Assembly: GCF_002920915.1 (NCBI RefSeq)
Contig: NZ_PQVF01000011.1
Span: 62,308-126,307 of the forward strand
Source: Solitalea longa
GTDB lineage: Bacteria; Bacteroidota; Bacteroidia; Sphingobacteriales; Sphingobacteriaceae
Length of the DNA: 64,000 nucleotides
Reading direction: 5' to 3'
This document shows, in pieces, positions 20,264 to 25,010 of this stretch; position 1 is the first letter of the stretch; each line of letters begins with the position of its first letter. Under the pieces are notes generated by a model, which saw only the letters and a program-made list of their open reading frames with translations, made no database searches and was not told where the DNA came from. Both the position numbers and the translations under genes were made by a program.

Positions 20264-20294
20264 TTTGTTTTATATAAAAAGACTTTTACATTTG
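20264..20294 (+). promoter_or_regulatory. Promoter of the pheA operon leader
   Basis: TTTG (20264-20267), a 19-base spacer and TACATTTG (20287-20294) exactly match the Bacteroidota housekeeping promoter pattern (-33 TTTG, -7 TAnnTTTG). Transcription would start near 20301, about 20 bases before the leader-peptide ATG. Confidence 0.75.
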
Positions 20295-20321
20295 TATAAA
20301 TACGAAATCAGAAAACAAACA

Positions 20322-20387
20322 ATGACATACAACAACGCATATTGGTTCTTTGGTTACTTTTACTTTTTTAGTAAGAGCCGGGACTAG
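20322..20387 (+). CDS. Aromatic leader peptide (pheA attenuator)
   Basis: This 21-codon frame (ATG at 20322, TAG at 20385-20387) holds ten aromatic codons: five Phe, four Tyr and one Trp, concentrated in YWFFGYFYFF. It starts about 20 bases after the predicted transcription start and precedes a Rho-independent terminator and pheA. Its last codons (20377-20384, GCCGGGAC) are the exact complement of the terminator's 5' arm (GTCCCGGC, 20421-20428). A ribosome that reads through to the stop would cover that segment and let the terminator form. One stalled at scarce charged aromatic tRNAs would leave it free to form an antiterminator. It is too short for ordinary gene calling. Confidence 0.88.
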   Translation: MTYNNAYWFFGYFYFFSKSRD

Positions 20388-20419
20388 TATGTAGATATAC
20401 AAGATAAACTTACATAAAA

Positions 20420-20451
20420 GGTCCCGGCGCAAAAGCGACGGGACCTTTTTT
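20420..20451 (+). terminator. Attenuator terminator upstream of pheA
   Basis: GGTCCCG-gCGC-AAAA-GCGa-CGGGACC folds into a GC-rich stem followed by six T residues (20446-20451), 15 bases before the pheA ATG. Its 5' arm pairs alternatively with 20377-20384 in the leader-peptide frame. Confidence 0.9.
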
Positions 20452-20465
20452 ATTATCAGCATTTT

Positions 20466-21293
20466 ATGAACAAAAAAAGGGTTGCAATACAAGGAACAAG
20501 AGCATCTTTTCATGAAGAAGCGGCATACAAATATTTCGGTGATGACATTGAAATTGTGGAGTGCGTTACGTTCAAGCAAACATGTGAAGCCGTAAAACAC
20601 AACAAGGCCGATTATGCTGTTATGGCTATTGAAAATTCAATAGCAGGCAGCCTGCTACCAAATTACAACCTCTTGCAGGAATTTAACTTTCCTATTGTTG
20701 GCGAAGTTTACCTGCATATTCAATTACACTTACTGGCATTACCGGGAGTTAAATTTGAAGATGTAAAATATGTTCACTCGCATCCAATTGCCATCCGTCA
20801 GTGCAACGATTTTTTTGAAGACTTTCCGCATTTGCAAGTTCTTGAAAAAACAGATACTGCCGCTTGTGCAAAAAATATCCGCGAAAATAATCTAACTGAT
20901 ACTGTTGCAATAGCCAATTTAACTGCAGCTAAAATGTACGATTTAGAAGTTCTGGAGAGACGCATCGAAACAAACAAAAAGAACTTCACCCGTTTCCTGA
21001 TTTTGTCAAAAGAAAGTGTTGAATCGAAAGATAACAATAAAGCCTCTATCTGTTTCCAGGTTGGAAACACCATAGGATCTCTGGCTAAGGTTTTAAATCT
21101 TTTTGTTGAAAACCATATTAATCTTACTAAAATTCAGTCGATGCCAATAATTGGAAAACCAAACGATTACAATTTTTACGTTGATCTGGAGTGGGAAAAA
21201 GAAAACGATTATGATCACTGCATGAGAAAACTATTAAAAGTGGTAGTAAACCTGGCAGTACTAGGTGAGTATGTAAAAAATCCCATGAAATAA
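20466..21293 (+). CDS. pheA: Prephenate dehydratase
   Basis: The enzyme converts prephenate to phenylpyruvate, the committed step to phenylalanine. The 275-residue product has an N-terminal catalytic domain (RVAIQGTRASFHEEAA, AIENSIAGSL, and the catalytic KKNFTRFLIL) and a C-terminal ACT domain (SICFQVGNTIGSLAKVLNLF, NLTKIQSMPI) that normally binds phenylalanine for feedback inhibition. It has no chorismate mutase domain; that activity is in the next gene. It is the first structural gene behind the aromatic leader-peptide attenuator. Confidence 0.95.
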   Translation: MNKKRVAIQGTRASFHEEAAYKYFGDDIEIVECVTFKQTCEAVKHNKADYAVMAIENSIAGSLLPNYNLLQEFNFPIVGEVYLHIQLHLLALPGVKFEDVKYVHSHPIAIRQCNDFFEDFPHLQVLEKTDTAACAKNIRENNLTDTVAIANLTAAKMYDLEVLERRIETNKKNFTRFLILSKESVESKDNNKASICFQVGNTIGSLAKVLNLFVENHINLTKIQSMPIIGKPNDYNFYVDLEWEKENDYDHCMRKLLKVVVNLAVLGEYVKNPMK

Positions 21294-21381: not shown

Positions 21382-22485
21382 ATGAAATCATTCAACGTCC
21401 TTCCCTTAAACGATTGGTTCCCAGCCGGAAACGAACCATTAATAATTGCAGGTCCGTGCAGTGCCGAAACTGAGGATCAGGTAATGGCCACTGCCCATGA
21501 ACTGAAAAAAACAGGAAAAGTTCGCCTATTCCGTGCCGGTGTTTGGAAACCTCGTACTCGTCCCGGAGAATTTGAGGGCCACGGAGCAGAGGCTTTGAAA
21601 TGGTTACAAAGAGTTAAAGCTGAAACTGGTTTTCCGGTAACATGTGAAGTGGCAACAGCCAAACACGTTGAAGAATCATTAGAAGCAGGCGTTGATGTTT
21701 TATGGATTGGAGCTCGTACAACAGTAAATCCTTTCTCTGTTCAGGAAATTGCTGACGCATTAAAAGGCGTTGATATTCCGGTAATGATCAAAAACCCAGT
21801 TAATCCTGATCTTTCATTATGGATCGGTGGTATTGAGCGTTTACACCGTGCAGGTATCAACAAAGTGGTAGCCATTCATCGTGGTTTCTCTTCATTCGAA
21901 AAATCGGCGTTCCGTAATGAGCCAATGTGGGAAATGGCTATCAACCTAAAAACCCAACACCCTGAGTTACCTATTATTGTTGACCCTAGCCACATTTGTG
22001 GAAATCGTGAGCTGTTGCCTTACATTTCGCAAAAAGCAATGGATTTGGATATGCAAGGATTAATGATCGAAAGTCATATTAACCCTGCTACCGCTTGGAC
22101 TGATGCCAAACAACAGGTTACCCCTGAAAACTTAGCTGTATTAGTTAATAACCTTACGTTGCGCAAACCAGAGTCTCAAAACGTTGAGTTTGTTAGCAAA
22201 CTGGAACAATTGCGTCAGAACATTGATAAATTGGATGATCAAATCATTCAAAAAATGGCTGAGCGTATGTCGATTGTTGAGAAGATTGGAGAATATAAGC
22301 GCGATAATGACGTAACCATTTTACAGGTGAATCGTTGGGAGGAAATTATAGGCAAACGCACAGCATTTGCAAAAGCGTTGAATTTAAGTGAGTCATTCAC
22401 TCACCGTCTACTAGACTTGATCCATAGCGAATCTATCCGTCGTCAAACCGAGATCATGAACACTAAAGTGGAACAACAAGCATAA
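21382..22485 (+). CDS. Bifunctional DAHP synthase / chorismate mutase type II
   Basis: Residues about 1-260 are a DAHP synthase of the KdsA-like subgroup (IIAGPCSAETEDQV, FRAGVWKPRTRPGEFEG, MIKNPVNPDLSLWIG, VDPSHICGNR). They catalyse the entry step of the shikimate pathway. Residues about 275-360 are an AroQ-type chorismate mutase (LRQNIDKLDDQIIQKMAERM, IHSESIRRQ). The 367-residue fusion is the usual Bacteroidota form. It supplies prephenate for PheA directly upstream. Fusion with the mutase commonly allows feedback control by prephenate or chorismate; this is family knowledge. Confidence 0.94.
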   Translation: MKSFNVLPLNDWFPAGNEPLIIAGPCSAETEDQVMATAHELKKTGKVRLFRAGVWKPRTRPGEFEGHGAEALKWLQRVKAETGFPVTCEVATAKHVEESLEAGVDVLWIGARTTVNPFSVQEIADALKGVDIPVMIKNPVNPDLSLWIGGIERLHRAGINKVVAIHRGFSSFEKSAFRNEPMWEMAINLKTQHPELPIIVDPSHICGNRELLPYISQKAMDLDMQGLMIESHINPATAWTDAKQQVTPENLAVLVNNLTLRKPESQNVEFVSKLEQLRQNIDKLDDQIIQKMAERMSIVEKIGEYKRDNDVTILQVNRWEEIIGKRTAFAKALNLSESFTHRLLDLIHSESIRRQTEIMNTKVEQQA

Positions 22486-22511: not shown

Positions 22512-22538
22512 GATTACACCGAATCTTTCGGTGTAATC
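22512..22538. repeat. Perfect hairpin inside the aro operon
   Basis: GATTACACCGAA and TTCGGTGTAATC form a 12-bp perfect stem with a three-base loop, in the 82-base gap between the DAHP synthase and aroA genes. No T-run follows, so it is unlikely to be a terminator. It may be an mRNA-stabilising or processing stem, or part of a dispersed repeat (flanks read AGATTTCACAG and TCTCAAATCAGTG). Confidence 0.7.
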
Positions 22539-22567: not shown

Positions 22568-23839
22568 ATGAACAGTATACTTGTAAAAAAAACTACCGAT
22601 GTACTTAAGGGAGAAATTATTCTTCCAGGTTCAAAGAGCGAAAGTAACCGGGCTCTAATTATGCAAGCCCTTTGCAAGCAACCTTTTGAAATAAAAAATC
22701 TTTCTGTTGCTGACGACACTGTTACGCTCGAACATCTGCTAAAAACAAACATCGCCTCTAATAACACAGAAATTAATGTTGGCCCAGCAGGAACTGCTAT
22801 GCGTTTTTTAACTGCTTTTTTAGCAGTGACACCGGGCGAATGGTTATTGACCGGAACTCATAGAATGCTCGAGCGCCCAATTAAATTATTAGTTGACGCA
22901 TTGCGCAACCTGGGTGCCGATATTGAATATGCCGGTAATGAAGGCTTTCCTCCATTAAAAATAAAAGGGAAGGATTTAAACCTGACGAATAAGATATCGA
23001 TAGATGGAGGTGTTAGCAGTCAGTATATTTCAGCTTTATTAATGATTGCCCCTACCCTGCCTAATGGGCTGGATTTGACGTTAGATGGAGTAGTTGCCTC
23101 AAGACCTTATATTGAAATGACGCTGGCAATGATGGCTGAGCTTGGTATTGAACATACCTGGAACGACAATAACATTAGCATAAAACCGCAAGCATATAAG
23201 TCCAATGATCTGTTTATTGAGCCCGATTGGAGTGGTTCGTCCTATTGGTATTCCTTAACGGCTTTATCAAAAGTAGCTGATATTAAACTTACCGGATTAA
23301 AAGGTCATAGTTTGCAAGGCGATAGCGTTATTGCCAACATCATGGAAAACTTTGGGGTTAAAACTGATTTTCTGAAAGATGGAATTCGATTAACAAAGGT
23401 TTCTGACAAGGTTACGGCTGATTTTATCGATTTTGAACATTGTCCGGATATAGCTCAAACCATCGCGGTTATTTGTGCAGGATTAAATCATAATTGCACT
23501 TTTACGGGTTTAGAAAGTTTGAAAATAAAAGAGACAGACCGTGTTGCCGCATTGCAAAATGAGTTAGGAAAATATGGCGTTACTATTACTCAGGAGGGCT
23601 TAAACTATCACATCGACTGTTCAGGAAGTAGTATTAATAAAACAGTTCAAGATACTATCCTTATTAATACGTACCATGACCATCGAATGGCCATGGCTTT
23701 TGCTCCCCTTGTGCTAAAAGTTAATTCAATGGAGGTTGAAGACCCTAAGGTTACAGGCAAATCTTACCCGCATTTTTGGGAAGATCTCGAAAAGGTTGGA
23801 TTTGAATGCACTCAGTCAGAACTTAAGACTACTAATTAA
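22568..23839 (+). CDS. aroA: 3-phosphoshikimate 1-carboxyvinyltransferase (EPSP synthase)
   Basis: AroA joins shikimate-3-phosphate and phosphoenolpyruvate. The 423-residue product has the shikimate-binding GSKSESNRALI, the loop GPAGTAMRFL (Pro replaces the Asn of the common GNAGTA form), GGVSSQYISALL and the C-terminal TYHDHRMAMAFAPL. Length and motif order are normal. It is the third gene of the attenuated operon. The glyphosate-loop variation is of interest only as a family trait. Confidence 0.95.
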   Translation: MNSILVKKTTDVLKGEIILPGSKSESNRALIMQALCKQPFEIKNLSVADDTVTLEHLLKTNIASNNTEINVGPAGTAMRFLTAFLAVTPGEWLLTGTHRMLERPIKLLVDALRNLGADIEYAGNEGFPPLKIKGKDLNLTNKISIDGGVSSQYISALLMIAPTLPNGLDLTLDGVVASRPYIEMTLAMMAELGIEHTWNDNNISIKPQAYKSNDLFIEPDWSGSSYWYSLTALSKVADIKLTGLKGHSLQGDSVIANIMENFGVKTDFLKDGIRLTKVSDKVTADFIDFEHCPDIAQTIAVICAGLNHNCTFTGLESLKIKETDRVAALQNELGKYGVTITQEGLNYHIDCSGSSINKTVQDTILINTYHDHRMAMAFAPLVLKVNSMEVEDPKVTGKSYPHFWEDLEKVGFECTQSELKTTN

Positions 23840-23910: not shown

Positions 23911-24984
23911 ATGGCAGGCAATACATTTGGAGAAGCATTTAGAATAACCACTTTCGGCGAATCACATGGAACCGCTATTGGAGTAATTATAGATGGTTGT
24001 CCGGCTGGTTTAATACTCGATCTGGATTTTGTACAAGCTGAACTGGACCGAAGAAAACCAGGACAATCAAAAATCACCACACAACGAAAGGAATCGGATA
24101 CGGCTCAAATTTTATCAGGAATATTTGAAGGAAAGTCAACTGGAACTCCTATCTCATTCCTGATTCCTAATGAAGATCAACGCTCAAAAGACTATGATCA
24201 TAACGTTGGTCCGTTTCGCCCCTCCCATGCCGATTATACCTATCAAGCGAAGTATGGCATCAGAGATCATCGCGGCGGAGGAAGATCATCAGCTCGTGAA
24301 ACAGCTGCCAGAGTAGCTGCCGGAGCCGTGGCTAAACTCTTCTTAAAGCAAGTTGCAGGTATTACGATCAATGCTTATGTAAGTGCCGTAGGTAAAATGA
24401 AGGTTGAAAAACCTTATACCGAACTGGATCTATCATCGGCAGAAAACAATATTTTGCGCTGCGCTGATCCTGAAAAAGCCGAAGAAATGATAGCCTATAT
24501 TGATGGTGTTCGTAAAGCGGGTGATACTGTTGGTGGAATACTAACTTGCGTGGCCCAAAAAGTTCCGGTTGGTTTAGGTGAGCCCGTTTTCGATAAACTA
24601 CATGCCGATTTGGGAAAAGCAATGCTGAGCATTAATGCGGTGCATGGCTTTGAATACGGATCGGGTTTTGAAGGAGCAACATTGTTAGGTTCTGAACACA
24701 ATGACCTATTTGAAACTGATTTTTCTACCCGTACCAATAATTCCGGAGGTATTCAAGGAGGAATTTCCAACGGAGAGGATATATACTTTAAAGTTGCCTT
24801 TAAACCGGTGGCGACTATAATGAAGGGGCAAGATACAGTTGACAAAGATGGCAATAAAGTAGAATTACATGGCAAGGGCCGGCATGACCCATGCGTAGTT
24901 CCCCGGGCGGTGCCAATTGTTGAGGCAATGGCGGCATTAGTTTTGGCCGACCATTATTTACGAAATAAAAATGCAAAAATTTAA
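23911..24984 (+). CDS. aroC: Chorismate synthase
   Basis: AroC makes chorismate from EPSP with reduced FMN, the last shikimate step. The 357-residue product shows the three family signatures: [39 protein letters not shown] and [16 protein letters not shown]. The length is typical. It is the last gene of the aromatic operon and ends at a terminator directly after its stop. Confidence 0.96.
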
Positions 24985-25010
24985 AAAGGGGCCTCTAGCC
25001 TCTTTTTTTT
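24984..25010 (+). terminator. Intrinsic terminator of the aromatic operon
   Basis: AAAAGGGGC-CTCTA-GCCTC and a run of eight T residues begin at the aroC stop codon. The stem is short (five GC-rich pairs plus A-T) but well placed. Confidence 0.75.

Follow-up and report, generated by a model that had tools for sequence, protein, structure and literature searches.

A predicted phenylalanine/tyrosine leader-peptide attenuator upstream of pheA in Solitalea longa and its relatives

A pheA leader family, Phe_leader, is known from Enterobacteria, in which pheA is preceded by a frame of Phe codons, alternative hairpins, and a terminator. A single attenuator can respond to more than one amino acid, as do the thrL (Thr and Ile) and ilv leaders of E. 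coli. Going by its title, a survey by Lopatovskaya from 2010 (doi 10.1134/S0026893310010164) compares how amino acid operons are attenuated, and Bacteroidetes cases may well be among those covered; no claim of first description is therefore made here.

For the phylum itself, a trp leader RNA of Bacteroidetes appears in the motif table of PMC2864571. Table 7 of PMC1173090 (2005) lists, from Merino's web database, a putative attenuator before pheA > hisHb > aroAIbeta-aroQ > tyrA of B. thetaiotaomicron; the passages on it mention neither a leader peptide nor codons, and the attenuator is probably orthologous to the element analysed below. In PMC9723704 (2021), the 5′ region of pheA in Flavobacterium psychrophilum and other Flavobacteriaceae was reported to hold a conserved structured element with no Rfam match, and 'strong clues' were given that amino acid operons are attenuated by leader peptides; the passages on the pheA element give no peptide, alignment, or spread beyond the family. 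For B. thetaiotaomicron, PMC7366714 describes short frames that resemble leader peptides and lie within long 5′ UTRs, in passages that do not name pheA, and the passages of PMC8305728 on his attenuation deal with enterobacteria only. A preliminary description of the present locus, made from the letters alone, had called attenuation much less studied in Bacteroidota than in Proteobacteria, a statement that has to be qualified by the Bacteroid-trp family (Rfam) and by the entries in PMC1173090 and PMC9723704. In a literature search, outside which most subscription journals lay, no Phe/Tyr leader before pheA was found described for Bacteroidota. The parts that are fresh here are the class-wide spread and the joint Phe/Tyr design, the mechanism itself being long known from other bacteria.

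The window, i.e., the whole stretch of DNA that was analysed (64,000 nucleotides of Solitalea longa contig NZ_PQVF01000011.1), was searched against Rfam. At cut-off, only a tmRNA gene was returned (RF00023, 58221-58618, 126.9 bits), and neither a T-box nor an amino acid riboswitch was found in the window. The element before pheA belongs neither to Phe_leader (RF01859; 21.9 bits against a cut-off of 55) nor to Bacteroid-trp (RF01692; 22.4 against 49); these sub-threshold plus-strand matches, like one to PyrR (22.8 against 54), are evidence in neither direction. The element resembles Phe_leader in its Phe-codon frame, its alternative hairpins, and its terminator before pheA, but it carries about as many Tyr as Phe codons, and its operon also carries DAHP synthase, aroA, and aroC. 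Bacteroid-trp is likewise a leader-peptide attenuator of the same phylum, but one that senses Trp before trpE. The multi-input reading is shared with thrL and the ilv leaders of E. coli, the pair at the window's pheA being Phe and Tyr.

The gap between the end of aroB (20212) and the start of pheA, of which the nearest named homologue (Solitalea agri) is 95% identical, holds a promoter, a 21-codon frame, and a terminator (Table 1). The frame contains 5 Phe, 4 Tyr, and 1 Trp codons, with the control codons mainly at codons 9-16. The features given in the preliminary description were borne out base for base, among them the octamer GTCCCGGC in the 5′ side of the terminator, which is the exact reverse complement of GCCGGGAC at 20377-20384. 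The 'consensus promoter' noted there is also present, in the Bacteroidota sigma-A form, for which a box at -12 to -5 is given in PMC9723704; a scan for E. coli-type promoters was blank at the leader site. Transcription is expected to start at about 20299. Of 50 family loci, 47 had the box TAnnTTTG no more than 80 nt ahead of the leader ATG, against 7.5% of base shuffles, and 45 had in addition a TTG 17-23 nt before the box, against 0.7%. The terminator pairs 20416-20426 with 20439-20449, with an inner CGC/GCG and U residues up to 20451. A mechanical terminator scan returned none at the leader site, which probably reflects the mismatch that separates the inner stem from the outer one.

Table 1. 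Coordinates of the predicted attenuator and of the downstream genes in the window.
Feature	Position	Strand	Basis or detail
Bacteroidota sigma-A promoter	20264..20294	+	TTTG 20264-20267, 19 nt, TAcATTTG 20287-20294
Leader frame, pheL-like, MTYNNAYWFFGYFYFFSKSRD and stop	20322..20387	+	ATG 20322, TAG 20385-20387; sequence, family comparison
Segment 1, 5′ arm of hairpin 1:2	20337..20364	+	Folding, alignment
Segment 2, frame end and first bases past the stop	20370..20392	+	Folding, alignment
Segment 3, 5′ side of the terminator	20416..20430	+	Can pair with segment 2 through GTCCCGGC (20421-20428)
Segment 4 with U-run, 3′ arm of the intrinsic terminator	20435..20451	+	Folding, alignment
pheA, prephenate dehydratase (PF00800)	20466..21293	+	Pfam
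DAHP synthase fused to chorismate mutase type II (PF00793 + PF01817)	21382..22485	+	Pfam
aroA, EPSP synthase (PF00275)	22568..23839	+	Pfam
aroC, chorismate synthase (PF01264)	23911..24984	+	Pfam
Terminator-like hairpin with U-run past aroC, where the operon likely ends	24983..25010	+	Weak: z -1.6, 13/200 shuffles as good

Folding of the leader predicts the classical four-segment layout, in which a 1:2 protector, a 2:3 antiterminator, and a 3:4 terminator exclude one another. Segment 1 covers the codons Ala-Tyr-Trp-Phe and Tyr-Phe-Tyr, and segment 2 can pair either with segment 1 or, as GCCGGGAC, with segment 3. The exclusion of 2:3 by 3:4 had been proposed in the preliminary description, which overlooked the 1:2 hairpin, so that three structures rather than two have to be considered. 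The whole leader folded at -44.9 kcal/mol (z -8.2; 0 of 200 shuffles equally good). Folded alone, the three structures were of similar strength, at -22.0 kcal/mol for 1:2 (z -4.8), -22.2 kcal/mol for 2:3, and -22.9 kcal/mol for 3:4 (z -5.4).

Pairing and covariation were counted on an alignment (A1) of 50 family sequences, from which G008 (L197) was left out. Since the named structures were read off the window's own fold, which the counting favours, and the shuffles ignore the relatedness of the sequences, the following values are to be read accordingly: 1:2 was paired in 88.4% of cells with a covariation of 0.180, against 0.139 when shuffled (0/500 as high) and at most 0.082 when slid, and 3:4 was paired in 85.3% of cells with 0.181 against 0.127 (0/500). 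The main helix of 2:3 was paired in 92.9% of cells and is so nearly invariant that covariation of the whole structure was weak (0.139 against 0.124 when shuffled, 20/500 as high); its inner half (20388-20394 / 20410-20416) was paired in only 54.3% of cells. All three structures exceeded every slid version in both cells paired and covariation score. RNAalifold on the same alignment returned the terminator and the inner leader hairpin, and did not return the long 1:2 stem. The outer 1:2 pair was A-U in 17, G-C in 15, G-U in 9, and unpaired in 9 of the 50 sequences, the swap between A-U and G-C changing the peptide between Thr and Ala, and a Tyr codon (TAC/TAT) co-varied with AGT/AAT (C-G 40, U-A 8, other 2).

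Beyond this alignment, the 2:3 match was tested at a fixed offset against dinucleotide shuffles in 136 leaders, which come from three partly overlapping sets (L031 apparently lies on the same contig as L002). It was significant (p ≤ 0.05) in 116 of them, namely 46/50 from the family, 49/58 from named loci, and 21/28 from a draw across the phylum, and was not significant in 20, including L027, L116, L122, and L197 of the family. An earlier version of the test, which started past the last aromatic codon, missed aromatic codons inside or after segment 2 and was replaced. A terminator-like hairpin by a lenient criterion followed each of the 136 leaders; the last 130 nt before control genes gave one by the same criterion in 53/392.

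PheA was found in 51 of the 61 family genomes, and all 51 loci were scored for a leader. At least 7 aromatics per 10 residues were present in 50/51 when GTG starts were allowed, as L013 requires, and in 49/51 with ATG only. The same density in ATG frames was found in 0/392 control regions, taken upstream of other long frames and scored with ATG starts only, and in 5/3820 dinucleotide shuffles. At least 6 aromatics per 10 residues were present in 51/51, so that conservation of the short frame in relatives, like that of the 2:3 main helix, bears out the point on which the preliminary description had staked its reading. Among 77 named loci, which were chosen by similarity and are thus non-random (80 minus L070, L086, and L100, for which upstream sequence was lacking), 58 had a leader at the threshold of 7 and 19 were below it. 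The phylum draw contained a PheA match in 138/158 genomes; 63 loci were scored, fused genes with long frames being mostly left out. Outside the family, a leader at this threshold was found in 24 of the 29 Bacteroidia genomes scored (below it: L144, L158, L162, L165, and L166), and outside the class in 4/34 (L138, L139, L148, and L150). In these four, PheA is Bacteroidia-like and 45-46% identical to the query, and operon and attenuator may have been transferred together from Bacteroidia. The 130 nt directly preceding pheA contained a strong terminator-like hairpin in 50/51 family, 54/77 named, and 16/29 class loci, and in 3/34 loci outside the class; among control genes, 14/392 had one in the corresponding stretch.

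A covariance model (R1) built on the family's element matched 24/149 class genomes at E ≤ 0.001. Among 19 matches inspected in 18 regions, 5 preceded a PheA homologue and 1 preceded thrA, which has its own Thr/Ile leader (3 and 1, respectively, among the 16 below 50 bits); the other 13, with no aromatic-rich leader and no PheA homologue found by script, look like chance. Judged from these comparisons, the exact RNA appears to be mainly a family-level trait and the leader principle class-wide; Cytophagales-type loci, for example, have a quite different leader such as RFYFSFYFYP. In Saprospiraceae (L081, L087, L093, and L102), a conserved Phe/Ile/Asn-rich frame (MKNNFFINFIIICFYKPL and similar) stands before pheA in place of the dense aromatic run.

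Measured from where the last aromatic codon starts, the CGGG-type motif in segment 2 lay 12, 13, or 15 nt away in 50/50 family leaders, a spacing of about the reach, or footprint, of a stalled ribosome. Within 30 nt of the motif (a zone of our own choice, counting the codons that start within it), both Phe and Tyr codons were present in 50/50 and Trp codons in 2/50, and Phe and Tyr are therefore the predicted conserved input. Codon totals in the 50 family leaders were 196 Tyr and 192 Phe. The preliminary description had spoken of an attenuator with ten aromatic codons, which overstates the input; its Phe and Tyr part stands, and Trp, found anywhere in the leader in only 49/136, is not a conserved input. 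The single Trp codon of the window is codon 8, 36 nt from the motif, and stalling there might still contribute a little. In 9/50 leaders (L007, L025, L029, and L114-L119), a shift just past the aromatic run moves the stop codon forward to a place before the CGGG-type motif, and segment 2 persists although it is untranslated, which argues that the RNA rather than the peptide end is conserved. What is kept is the aromatic codons and the RNA segment, and not the SKSRD tail as such.

The features found at this locus are a conserved short frame rich in codons for the products of the pathway, an intrinsic terminator before the first gene, a 2:3 antiterminator and a 1:2 protector hairpin that exclude each other, and control codons within reach of segment 2. 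With high confidence, 20264-20451 is read as a ribosome-mediated transcription attenuator responding to charged tRNA-Phe and tRNA-Tyr, and the aromatic genes would very probably be switched on only when Phe or Tyr is short. Promoter use, leader translation, ribosome stalling, termination, and the starvation response are here inferred from sequence. Transcription would begin at about 20299. With ample Phe and Tyr, the leading ribosome would proceed to the stop codon and cover segment 2, the 3:4 terminator would form, and the transcript would end at about 20451. When either is short, the ribosome would stall in the YWFFGYFYFF run and keep segment 1 unpaired; segment 2, being free, would pair with segment 3, and the terminator would not form, so that transcription would continue into pheA and DAHP synthase-chorismate mutase, and probably also into aroA and aroC. 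On a leader without a ribosome, 1:2 would form and termination would be the default.

An element of the same anatomy might respond to one amino acid alone, Phe being sensed, or the reverse, and we regard this as an unlikely alternative. In the Phe-only form, the Tyr codons would interrupt runs of U or contribute to the UUUUAC/GUAAGA helix; the Tyr-Phe-Tyr codons do also form the inner leader helix, and RNA pairing alone could keep them. Such a role sits poorly with the codons of the whole sample, since all 136 leaders, quite different lineages included, carry both Phe and Tyr, and 133 of them at least two of each, and also with the other leaders of this genome (thr, his, and trp), each of which uses its own cognate codons.

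It is far less probable that no codons are read at all. A structured 5′ region with a terminator and an antiterminator could belong to a riboswitch, a T-box, or a target of a TRAP-like protein, but the window holds no Rfam family at cut-off other than the tmRNA elsewhere, and sensing of a ligand or protein would leave the codon content unexplained; this explanation is given very little weight. Slightly less still is given to a plain, leaky intrinsic terminator of the aroB transcript with a frame and a complementarity that arose by chance. A hairpin with a U-run between genes can be just that, and aroB does lie upstream on the same strand. The frame, its spacing, and the alternative pairing are, however, conserved across the family, the promoter box precedes the leader in nearly all of its loci (the 47/50 given above), and the element is present with or without an upstream aroB, a same-strand AroB match being found in 19/51 family loci (within 1.5 kb; 0.7 kb for L197).

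The relative weight of Tyr codons was compared with the presence of tyrA. A TyrA match above 100 bits was found in 20 of the 51 pheA-bearing family genomes, and a strong match was absent in 31. The share Y/(F+Y) in the leader was 0.59 in the 31 and 0.37 in the 20 (p 2e-6 by genome, p 0.001 by genus); the TyrA label needs only two changes on the PheA tree, and the link is therefore not independent evidence. In 29/61 family genomes, there was a frame of 539-653 aa that contains two weak Biopterin_H (PF00351) pieces and is perhaps a divergent phenylalanine hydroxylase; 13 pheA genomes had neither a strong TyrA match nor this frame. Among the genomes without TyrA, splitting by the hydroxylase-like frame added nothing clear (4.7 Tyr codons per leader in positive and 4.4 in negative genomes). 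Without tyrA, PheA, with the phenylalanine hydroxylase-like protein, may be the sole gate to tyrosine. As a speculative suggestion, to which we give a low probability, Bacteroidia may ancestrally have had an attenuator with two inputs, Phe and Tyr, whose weighting was retuned by evolution, with relatively more Tyr codons where tyrA was lost.

Pfam bore out the identities that the preliminary description had given to the four downstream genes, and its proposal that they are controlled as a unit is likely on present evidence: none of the three internal gaps (pheA-DAHP synthase, DAHP synthase-aroA, and aroA-aroC) contained TAnnTTTG, and past aroC there is a terminator-like sequence, so that one transcript is likely. 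The proposal is weakened by a hairpin at 22512-22538, between DAHP synthase-mutase and aroA, with a perfect stem of 12 bp (-16.8 kcal/mol, z -7.1) and without a good U-run, which is possibly a partial terminator or a processing site and could lower expression of aroA and aroC. A same-strand DAHP synthase-mutase gene followed pheA in 49/51 family loci; of the two exceptions, none was seen at L121 and the region of L197 was too short.

Other amino acid operons were inspected for leaders. The window's genome carries MITKQHIALHHHTHLHHGHHHHCA before hisG, MNNKNTNIFAWWRCNN before trpE, and MKIAQSTINTTVITAPVVICAISIITTTIITPWGV before thrA. Leaders with adjacent Trp codons preceded trpE in 10/10 genomes, hisG leaders were found in 7/7 genomes with a placeable start (3/10 were not placeable), and thrA leaders in 7/9 regions (not L301 and L303), plus L282; by eye, none was evident at ilvD (12 loci), tyrA (7), or a second homoserine dehydrogenase gene (9). 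The occurrence of cognate Thr/Ile, His, Trp, and Phe/Tyr leaders in one genome suggests that control by leader-peptide attenuation is general in Bacteroidia, a major gut and environmental group. The phylum starts translation mostly without Shine-Dalgarno sequences. An attenuator of this kind needs a ribosome close behind RNA polymerase, and its conservation is thus indirect evidence for transcription-translation coupling. The element before pheA is also a candidate for a new Rfam family and would provide a native sensor of Phe and Tyr.

Several of these leaders have features of their own. At L206 (reverse complement), a leader about 200 nt upstream of hisG has His at 11 of its 24 residues, and the hairpin past it lies near the hisG start without a U-run; this leader may therefore act on translation or through another kind of termination. 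The trpE leader of a class relative (G116, L234) matches Bacteroid-trp at 62.4 bits against the cut-off of 49, and that of the window's own genome (L237) is below the cut-off. The latter leader, MNNKNTNIFAWWRCNN, lies 195 nt upstream of trpE (reverse complement) and is followed by a strong terminator; by eye, TGCGAC past its stop is complementary to GTCGCA in the 5′ side of the terminator. Thr/Ile-rich leaders precede aspartokinase-homoserine dehydrogenase at L300, 210 nt upstream of thrA, and at L282 in a relative, the latter being the one picked up by the pheA covariance model.
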